A stretch of DNA of 42,745 nt from contig JAFQDL010000002.1 of the NCBI GenBank assembly GCA_017399265.1, forward strand, positions 1 through 42,745, given 5' to 3'. Under the pieces are notes generated by a model. The model was not told where the DNA came from, did no database searches, and saw nothing but the letters and a program-made list of their open reading frames with translations. Made by a program: the position numbers and the translations under genes. How positions within the stretch are numbered: position 1 is the first letter of the stretch; each line of letters opens with the position of its first letter. Below, piece by piece: positions 12,868 to 42,745 of the stretch. Source of the DNA: Clostridia bacterium (lineage in GTDB: Bacteria; Bacillota; Clostridia; Christensenellales; UBA1242).

Positions 12868-13023
12868 AATTAACTCCTACGCATTCATTATAACATATTT
12901 TTTTTAGATAGTATACTTTTTACAAAAAAATAGCAAATTTTAGATTTCTCCTGGCTAGTGCTTAAATGTTAATTGACAATCATTAGATCTTTACAAAAAT
13001 GTAAACACATTTAATAACTAAAA

Positions 13024-13050
13024 AACCTCACTTCTAATTGAAGCGAGGTT
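13024..13050 (-). terminator. Terminator of the tRNA-ended ncRNA
   Basis: AACCTCGCTTC/GAAGTGAGGTT hairpin on the minus strand (13050-13040 with 13034-13024, one G-U pair), followed by TTTTTAG. It begins 3 nt after the CCA-like end of the ncRNA. Confidence 0.8.
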
Positions 13051-13053
13051 GTT

Positions 13054-13203
13054 TGGTGCACCGTAAGGGGACTTCGAAATCGCTTCTACCCTTCCTCTTG
13101 CCCTTACTCACGCTTGCAATCCGTTTCTCTTGTTTTACACACCATAGTCACCTCAGACAGTTGCCAACTGCCGAACCAGGGGTTCTCCTCCCTAGGTGCA
13201 TCA
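13054..13203 (-). ncRNA. Structured non-coding RNA with tRNA-Arg-like ends (possible raiA-class RNA)
   Basis: A ~150-nt, GC-rich island in AT-rich DNA, with no credible ORF. On the minus strand it begins TGCACCTAGGGAGG and ends CCCCTTACGGTGCACCA, so 5' TGCACC pairs with 3' GGTGCA and leaves an ACCA tail. Near the 3' end TTCGA resembles a T-loop. An internal hairpin is GGCAGTT-GGC-AACTGTC, followed by a purine-rich region (GAGGTGAC, AAGAGGAAGGGTAGAAG). It is followed by its own terminator and lies directly after tRNA-Arg and that gene's terminator. No promoter fits just upstream, so read-through and processing from the tRNA transcript is plausible. Size, clostridial context and closed-end fold suggest the raiA-motif class, but I recall that motif only roughly. 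It is not tmRNA (no tag ORF) nor SRP RNA. Confidence 0.65.
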
Positions 13204-13215
13204 GTTTAAAAAAAA

Positions 13216-13234
13216 CTCACTTTTTTGAAGTGAG
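13216..13234 (-). terminator. Terminator of tRNA-Arg
   Basis: CTCACTT (13234-13228) pairs with AAGTGAG (13222-13216) on the minus strand, followed by eight T. Its A-rich loop and weak stem may allow read-through into the ncRNA. Confidence 0.7.
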
Positions 13235-13240
13235 GTTGAC

Positions 13241-13317
13241 TGGTGCACCGTAAGGGAGTCGAACCCCTAACCTTTGGTTCCGTAGACCAACGCTCTATCC
13301 AATTGCGCTAACGGTGC
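13241..13317 (-). tRNA. tRNA-Arg (anticodon ACG), CCA encoded
   Basis: 77 nt on the minus strand. Acceptor GCACCGT pairs with ACGGTGC, discriminator A, encoded CCA. D-arm AGCGCAATTGGATAGAGC. Anticodon stem-loop TTGGT-CTACGGA-ACCAA gives anticodon ACG (Arg, CGU; CGC/CGA by inosine). T-arm GGGGTTCGACTCCC. Driven by a consensus promoter and followed by a terminator. Confidence 0.95.
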
Positions 13318-13365
13318 ATAAATGAAATTGTGTGAAATTGATAAATATATCTAAATCACGAACTA

Positions 13366-13394
13366 ATTATAAGGAATTTAGAGATGTTTGTCAA
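13366..13394 (-). promoter_or_regulatory. Consensus sigma-A promoter of tRNA-Arg
   Basis: -35 TTGACA (13394-13389), 17-bp spacer, -10 TATAAT (13371-13366), about 50 bp before the mature 5' end, so a short 5' leader must be removed by RNase P. Confidence 0.85.
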
Positions 13395-13453
13395 TATATA
13401 AAACCAATCTTAATTAAAAAATTATTTATTACACAGATTATCAAAACAAAAAA

Positions 13454-42212: not shown

Positions 42213-42223
42213 TTAATTGAAAA

Positions 42224-42338
42224 CTGGCAACGTCCTATTTTCCCGATCAGCTTCCCGATAAGTATCTTCGGCGCTAGAGGTCTTTACTTCTGTGTTCGGA
42301 ATGAGAACAGGTGTTTCCCCTCTGCTATAATCACCAGT
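42224..42338 (-). rRNA. rrf: 5S ribosomal RNA
   Basis: Minus strand reads ACTGGTGATTATAGCAGAGG, then GAAACACCTGTTCTCATTCC and GAACACAGAAGTAAAGACCT: the conserved 5S loops (CACCTGTTCTCATTCCGAAC, GAAGTTAAG-type) in about 115 nt. Its 5' and 3' ends pair (TGGTGAT... / ...TTGCCAG). Located about 115 nt after the 23S end, before a terminator. Confidence 0.92.
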
Positions 42339-42455
42339 AATGATTGAATGAACTTAAAGTACATTCACAACTACATATTTATAAAATATAATTTAGACAC
42401 TATTAATTAATCAAGGTATTCGCTATCTTACGATTATTTATAATCAAAATATTTT

Positions 42456-42745
42456 TGATCAAGCCCTCGACCTATTAGTACCAGTCAGCTACATATATTA
42501 CTACACTTCCACCTCTGGCCTATCAACCTTGTCATCTTCAAGGGGTCTTACTTGCTTAAAGCAATGGGATATCTCATCTTGTGGTCGGTTTCACGCTTAG
42601 ATGCTTTCAGCATTTATCCGTTCCGTACTTCGCTACCCTGCCATGCCGCTGGCGCGACAACAGGTACACAATAGGTACGTTCACTCTGGTCCTTTCGTAC
42701 TAGGAGCAAATCCACTCAAATATCCAACGCCCACGACGGATAGGG
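42456..42745 (-). rRNA. rrl: 23S ribosomal RNA, 3' end only
   Basis: The last ~290 nt of 23S, cut by the window edge. It includes the sarcin-ricin loop (CTAGTACGAAAGGACCAGAG, minus strand near 42705-42686), GGCATGGCAGGGTAGC, AAAGCATCTAAGCGTGAAAC and the terminal GGTCGAGGGCTTGATC. The sarcin-ricin loop reads ACGAAAGG rather than the usual ACGAGAGG (base 42694). Followed by 5S without an intervening tRNA. Confidence 0.93.

Follow-up and report, generated by a model that had tools for sequence, protein, structure and literature searches.

A GC-rich unit of about 150 nt lies directly behind a tRNA-Arg(ACG) gene on the minus strand of the window, by which we mean the whole 42,745-nt stretch analyzed here (contig JAFQDL010000002.1 of the Clostridia bacterium assembly GCA_017399265.1). 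The tRNA gene (13241–13317), which encodes its CCA end, was recognized by ARAGORN and by Rfam (RF00005, 59.5 bits) as an intact host tRNA and is preceded by a promoter-like site of the consensus sigma-70 type (13366–13394; TTGACA-17-TATAAT, 12/12). A terminator scan placed the tRNA's own intrinsic-terminator-like site at 13216–13234, with a T run to ~13207, and a second copy at 13024–13050, whose likeness to the first was read from the sequence; shuffled sequences gave 0.1 such sites, compared with these two. Between them lies the unit, which starts with TGATGCACC at 13203 and ends with GGTGCACCA at 13054. Its GC content is 52% (13054–13197) versus 31.8% for the window, a value equaled in 1 of 3488 segments (144 nt, step 12 nt, first 42,000 nt, the element's own place included). 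A preliminary description of this DNA had placed a structured RNA at 13054–13317, a span that contains the element but also takes in tRNA-Arg. Its account of a GC-rich ~150-nt island with TGCACC close to the 5′ end, GGTGCACCA at the 3′ end, and a terminator behind it (13050–13024, with the similar site behind the tRNA) agrees with what we find, as does the statement that the element has no good promoter of its own: the scan returned no promoter-like site within it on the same strand. Elsewhere in the window, a 5S rRNA and the 3′ end of a 23S rRNA occupy 42222–42745 on the minus strand, at the window's end.

Both ends of the unit are related to the neighboring tRNA. The 3′-terminal 16 nt, CCCTTACGGTGCACCA (13054–13069), are identical to the tRNA 3′ end at 16/16 positions and constitute the longest word shared by the two, there being no common 17-mer; the last 15 nt of this tail copy occur twice in the window's genome (G000). 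The 5′-terminal ~31 nt (13173–13203) match the tRNA 3′ half in antisense (TGATGCACC..AGGGAG..GAACCCC..TGGTTC), covering the acceptor, T-arm, and variable region, with TC of the T-loop replaced by GA; the local alignment score is 34.6, whereas shuffled sequences average 16.0 (p = 0.005, the lowest value that 200 shuffles allow). The tRNA-like closing stem therefore consists of two copies of the tRNA tail, an antisense one on the 5′ side opposite a sense one on the 3′ side. The proposal that the element is tRNA-derived is thereby confirmed, while the claim that both ends form the neighbor's acceptor holds for the exact 3′ copy only, the 5′ end being the antisense of the 3′ half rather than a real 5′ acceptor strand. 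Since TGATGCACC is complementary to most of the CCA end GGTGCACCA, that end, as read from the sequence, would be mostly paired and not free, and the aminoacylation or RNase P processing suggested earlier is not supported by this anatomy. Downstream of the antisense copy lies a hairpin, GGCAGTT-GGC-AACTGTC (13156–13172), the signature of what we call the class A core. The fold of the window unit as a whole is ordinary (z −0.31; 81 of 200 shuffles at least as stable). The terminator is duplicated along with the tRNA tail, and the window carries one unit only, without a tandem array.

Size and tRNA-like ends would fit a known RNA class such as raiA, tmRNA, T-box, or Y RNA, and a raiA-type RNA had been offered as one identity. 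A cmscan search of Rfam 15 over 12900–13400 (E ≤ 10) nonetheless returned the tRNA as the sole match at a gathering score, plus nine others far short of theirs, so that no Rfam 15 family is assigned to the window unit; raiA is absent from these matches, as is tmRNA, which ARAGORN did not report either. For the RtT RNA family (RF00391; gathering score 45 bits), whose E. coli control scored 133–138 bits, the model gave no match in the window region (E ≤ 10) or in 17 other loci (E ≤ 1), and the window unit does not reach the gathering score. Other Rfam families gave only sub-threshold matches to the units; the recurrent one was the antisense RNA family HPnc0260, with 51–52 bits against a gathering score of 59 opposite two tRNA-Ile units (L137:268-435 and L204:1679-1802, cmscan). 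It was discarded as the identity of the units: in L137, where the alignment was viewed, the aligned part is mostly the antisense of the tRNA T-arm. Membership of a known RNA class is already refuted at the sensitivity of Rfam 15.

The same arrangement recurs behind other tRNAs of the host family, a GTDB family of small (~1 Mb) genomes available as draft assemblies. Because BLAST with the window unit alone was too weak to recover kin, as leads we used exact tail pairs in G002, a genome of the same genus, and recurrent short matches in G041, a genome of another genus. A scan was then made for copies of each tRNA's 3′ 14-mer (≤2 mismatches, ending in CCA, ≤330 nt downstream, outside a full tRNA) in fetched stretches of 14 genomes, which hold part of each tRNA set (18 of 24 in G000); the scan is blind to degenerate tails. 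Tail copies were found behind 23 of 197 tRNAs in ten genomes of the window's family (G000 4/18, G041 3/23, G002 7/24, G006 1/23, G012 1/7, G046 0/1, G034 0/36, G045 4/20, G032 1/23, and G050 2/22), where by our own arithmetic chance would give ~0.1. One member of the family, G034, thus has none behind the 36 tRNAs covered, and four genomes of other families likewise gave 0/48, a sample too small to exclude units there. Inspection by eye added two units in G000: one follows tRNA-Tyr, and the other, which follows tRNA-Leu, is truncated by a contig end. We had also noted that tail copies always stand behind the last tRNA of a run (23 of 113 "last" tRNAs versus 0 of 84 others), and we dropped this finding because "last" was defined as having no tRNA start within 150 nt, which the unit itself causes; in L216 and L222 another tRNA does lie downstream of a unit.

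These units share a layout. A terminator copied from the local tRNA comes first, and in most units the 3′ half of that tRNA clearly follows as an antisense copy; next are a folded core and, last, the sense copy of the 3′ end with CCA. The cores (A in the window; B/C and D elsewhere) lie inside or beside the loop of a copied T-arm or anticodon arm. The tRNA ahead of the unit is thus left whole, and its tail and terminator are present a second time as a block. In G002, tRNA-Arg is followed by another GC-rich unit that also ends in the tRNA tail and a terminator, and G041 has ~195-nt units behind tRNA-Met, one complete and one broken, others behind tRNA-Glu, and, at contig ends, tandem or single units with Arg-like and other tails. 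Near-identical units stand in tandem behind Gly (three) and Lys (two) in G002, Ile (two) in G032, and Thr (two) in G045, and tandem arrays are present in G041 too. Unit lengths range over 82–257 nt (n = 30), with 28 of the 30 at 121–257 nt; the 82-nt Thr unit of G050 may be a plain tRNA fragment. The test for an antisense copy took the final 41 nt of each tRNA, so that copies of other tRNA parts escape it; among 30 family units and one E. coli unit, 18 of 31 gave p ≤ 0.01 and six gave p > 0.1 (Thr unit 1 of G000, Tyr of G002, Leu of G045, both Ile units of G032, and Thr of G050). Outside these genomes, phages and plasmids gave no match, and viral contigs gave no exact-pattern match for types B and D. 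The pattern GAGAACCN{2,10}GGTTCGGCAG hit 51 loci in viral contigs, none with a further class A signature by eye, and was attributed to chance, as was the 17-mer match in the one contig inspected of ten, from goat gut (L037), which by eye looks like part of a protein-coding gene. Several contigs end inside units, as if repeats break the assembly (G000:C13, L116; G041:C2, L057; G041:C19, L055), and G000:C3 (L119) ends just behind tRNA genes, inside an apparent next tRNA.

BLAST comparisons among the units revealed that core types cut across tRNA identities. Type B (GTAGTCGGG..CCCGAC) is common to Lys, Tyr, Arg, Glu, and Asn units, and type A is common to the window's Arg unit and a Met unit of G041. 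A covariance model (R1) trained on two G041 units only, with the window unit excluded, matched the latter at 13195–13053 with 24.2 bits (E = 7.4e-4 in 69 kb), its second hairpin coinciding with the signature hairpin above. Class A, which rests on the window unit and the units of one other genome, is rare: with strict filters R1 matches only G041 among 247 family genomes, a search that omits the window unit because its match is too weak for it. Of the conservation and covariation for which the preliminary description had proposed a check, conservation is seen in the match of a model from another genus to the window unit, and strong covariation in the class D core described next. A reader of the window by itself could not see how many other tRNAs have this layout behind them, or that the core forms part of a distinct family.

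Units of different genera, one behind tRNA-Asn (G002) and one behind tRNA-Ile (G032), share the type D core with 89% identity over 93 nt. At E ≤ 0.01 this core occurs in 100 of 247 sampled family genomes and in 27 of 42 genera, with no match at this threshold in the window's own genome; none of the 20 loci scanned reached an Rfam gathering score on the D core. Among 37 copies in 30 loci of the best matches, 25 have a same-strand tRNA ≤450 nt upstream, and these represent 10 anticodons (Ile 3, Arg-ACG 2, Asn 3, Ser-GGA 2, Leu-CAA 6, Leu-AAG 1, Leu-TAA 4, Met 2, Arg-TCT 1, and His 1). The other 12 lack such a tRNA, some of them lying at contig ends; L204, L205, L218, and L223 have ~1.5 kb of flank with no tRNA called, L219, L220, and L226 have an upstream tRNA on the opposite strand, and L225 has a same-strand tRNA downstream. 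In the 25 copies, the sense copy measures 16–17 nt, from the 3′ strand of the T-stem, in 13 and 47–48 nt, from approximately the 3′ strand of the anticodon stem, in six, all of them Leu; it is shorter, diverged, or cut in the remaining six. The core begins directly after the T-loop TTCG in 14 of 37 rows, and the antisense tRNA segment ahead of it has a mean longest match of 12.2 nt versus 5.6 nt in shuffles (25 copies). With strict filters, the class D model (R2) gave three weak matches in 299 genomes of the phylum, two of them in 3-kb loci without a tRNA. The third is in a genome of another family of the phylum, where the D core motif was seen by eye beside a tRNA-Met on the opposite strand, flanked by tRNA-Met tail copies (L232 ~230-390, G889:C67). 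A strong OLE RNA match (RF01071, 393.8 bits; L208:503-1089, G020:C7) was found within a few hundred bases of two class D units that follow tRNA-Asn.

Covariation was assessed on 29 of the 37 D copies, leaving out L206 (identical to L205), the second copies in L208, L212, L215, and L227, and L217, L220, and L225, which have odd or cut ends. RNAalifold predicted 21 pairs, 15 of which show double changes, with 56 double-change cells versus 10.9 in shuffles and a covariation score of 0.304 versus 0.085; none of 500 shuffles scored as high on any of five measures. The rows are relatives found by similarity, so the shuffle comparison is not a probability, and the slid controls, which preserve relatedness, stayed at or below 0.072. 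Only 5 G-U pairs occur among ~581 paired cells, and the core also contains conserved unpaired sequence such as GGCTAAAAA.

What stands behind a given tRNA changes between close relatives. Within the window's genus, the stretch separating a tRNA-Met from a facing tRNA-Glu was compared in three genomes. G007 carries a pair of D units here, together with the remnant of a different type; in G002 a broken second copy accompanies a unit whose 3′ part is B-like; and G006 lacks a unit. Because the G006 interval is filled by other sequence, it does not qualify as a clean empty site, and the comparison turned up no such site. Behind tRNA-Arg(ACG) stand a type A unit in G000, a type B unit in G002, and in G012 a unit that by eye is degenerate; class A itself stands behind Arg in G000 and behind Met in G041. 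One core thus occurs at different tRNAs with local ends, and contents vary between close relatives. This combination, of contents differing at one tRNA and one core behind many tRNAs, is what a mobile element would be expected to leave, and it is from this distribution that we infer mobility.

We therefore favor, with a probability of roughly 58%, the reading that the window unit is a small, non-coding element which spreads from tRNA gene to tRNA gene, remaking its ends from the tRNA at each site. Cores would move or be copied between tRNA genes and acquire local tRNA ends on arrival. The mobile form would probably be a folded single strand, either ssDNA or RNA turned into cDNA, and insertion would occur at tRNA arm loops through a putative recombinase, transposase, or reverse transcriptase acting in trans. 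The ends could be copied from the local tRNA, antisense then sense, by template switching or fold-back synthesis, and tandem arrays might then grow and shrink by ordinary recombination between tail repeats. A tRNA gene would be a safe harbor because its 3′ end is rebuilt. A wider version of this proposal, which we hold tentatively and at slightly under even odds, is that a new class of non-coding mobile elements resides in tRNA tails: the core would insert at an arm loop (the T-loop, or the anticodon loop in tRNA-Leu), the tRNA would keep working, the antisense and sense ends would be built locally each time, and the tyrT/RtT repeat of E. coli would be one settled member.

The units might instead serve the host as small RNAs of the RtT type, with read-through of the first terminator giving a joint tRNA–element RNA that is cut at the tRNA ends and whose core or antisense segment regulates translation, tRNA maturation, or the stringent response. 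The strong covariation of class D counts in favor of such a role, and wherever a same-strand upstream tRNA was found (25 of 37 copies) the D core lies downstream of it; in E. coli, RtT is annotated as a noncoding RNA adjoining tyrV. Folding also speaks for structure, since the units as a group fold better than mononucleotide shuffles (25 units; mean z −2.8 forward and −2.4 reverse), and between sister copies (11 pairs) predicted paired positions have changed less often than unpaired ones (38 of 918 versus 60 of 761; odds ratio 0.50, p = 0.0016), a rough count, as the structures are single-sequence folds. Neither result favors a strand, however: the forward strand gives the better fold in 9 of 25 units, and changes inside the stems of sister copies comprise 8 G-U, 7 A-C, 2 Watson–Crick, and 21 broken pairs. 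A folded single DNA strand, or hairpin correction at the DNA level, fits these observations as well as RNA action does. Against a host RNA we also count the class D total of G-U pairs, which we take as low because an RNA would be expected to show more, the differing core types behind one tRNA within a genus, the terminator that separates tRNA and unit, and the ordinary fold of the window unit. On balance, we consider this explanation unlikely.

Two further accounts dispense with a dedicated element. Template switching during replication at the palindromic tRNA 3′ half could yield an inverted and a direct copy and tandem duplications, the cores being debris that hairpin correction maintains in perfect form. 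The antisense-then-sense order is the expected product of a double template switch, tandem copies are common, and hairpin arms change jointly with hardly any G-U intermediates, but such a by-product leaves unexplained why the same ~90-nt core stands behind 10 anticodons and in 27 genera and why unpaired core sequence such as GGCTAAAAA is conserved; we regard it as improbable. Alternatively, the units could be scars left at tRNA 3′ ends by ordinary phages or islands, in the form of attL/attR repeats around deleted DNA. For many integrases, the crossover lies in the T-loop or anticodon loop. Mobile elements that integrate into tRNA genes do leave partial tRNA genes (PMC9897764). Conserved folded cores, antisense copies, a uniform small size, and copied terminators are unexpected of random scars, and this origin is very improbable.

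The closest known parallel is the tyrT repeat of E. coli, reportedly described in 1978, and its RtT RNA, reportedly in 1991. This RNA is released as a stable RNA from the tRNA transcript, the repeat is known at one tRNA locus, and we know of no accepted origin for it. In E. coli K-12 (NC_000913), three 178-nt units stand behind the tyrV tRNA-Tyr, each ending in the tRNA 3′ end, and a further RtT match (L155:1264-1395) lies upstream of tyrV, ahead of that tRNA gene. The likeness to the units described here extends to several features. Each ends in the 3′ end of the upstream tRNA (16 nt, exact, in the window), and both occur in tandem (here in G041, G002, G045, and G032). The first E. coli unit opens with an antisense copy of the tRNA 3′ half (33.4 versus 15.9, p = 0.005), and TC of the T-loop is changed to GA (GGATGAGAA in E. 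coli), as in the window and the Met units of G041. With filters off, the top four R1 matches in the 1.4-kb E. coli locus are the four RtT copies (E = 1.4e-4 to 1.2e-3), although these matches depend mainly on the closing stem and CCA. In contrast, R1 with default filters gives no E. coli match, the cores themselves align weakly (for the best class A unit p = 0.016, for the window unit 0.28), and the present units stand behind many tRNAs with several cores, whereas in E. coli they are known from one tRNA locus. RtT has been described as possessing a covarying tandem GA motif (PMC7657543). The comparison is only suggestive of homology between class A and the RtT core of E. coli. Having the same anatomy without an RF00391 match, the window unit is built like RtT but is not a member of RF00391, and it perhaps works like RtT. 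The earlier suggestion of an undescribed system is largely right.

Other small non-coding hairpin elements, such as REP/REPIN, MITE, and attC-type repeats, are possibly moved by an enzyme acting in trans. They differ in that they are not bound to tRNA tails and have fixed ends rather than ends copied from the local tRNA. In Methanopyrus kandleri, about half of the tRNA genes have a palindromic motif ~10 bp behind them, which likewise links a palindrome to tRNA 3′ ends genome-wide, but the motif is ~20 nt long and the accessible part of that account reports no tRNA copy (PMC5217627). Partial tRNA genes of the attR type resemble the present units in placing a partial tRNA copy beside or apart from the full gene; their inserts, however, are thousands of bases of viral or island DNA, whereas those found here are ~120–260 nt, non-coding, and folded and carry an antisense copy (PMC9897764). 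In the open-access literature, as represented by titles and abstract openings and with subscription papers outside its scope, we found no description of such elements.

With a core in 100 of 247 genomes and clear covariation, a one-off curiosity of E. coli becomes a class open to comparative study, which allows the copying of ends from the local tRNA, the moving enzyme, and host use of the RNA to be investigated. The units may also explain some assembly breaks behind tRNA genes and some "partial tRNA" annotations in such genomes. In G041 (L129:240-417, G041:C6), inspection by eye showed, behind a tRNA-Ala, a tRNA-Ile-like gene that is split by a short insert after the anticodon and is followed by a tRNA-Ile that reaches the contig end.
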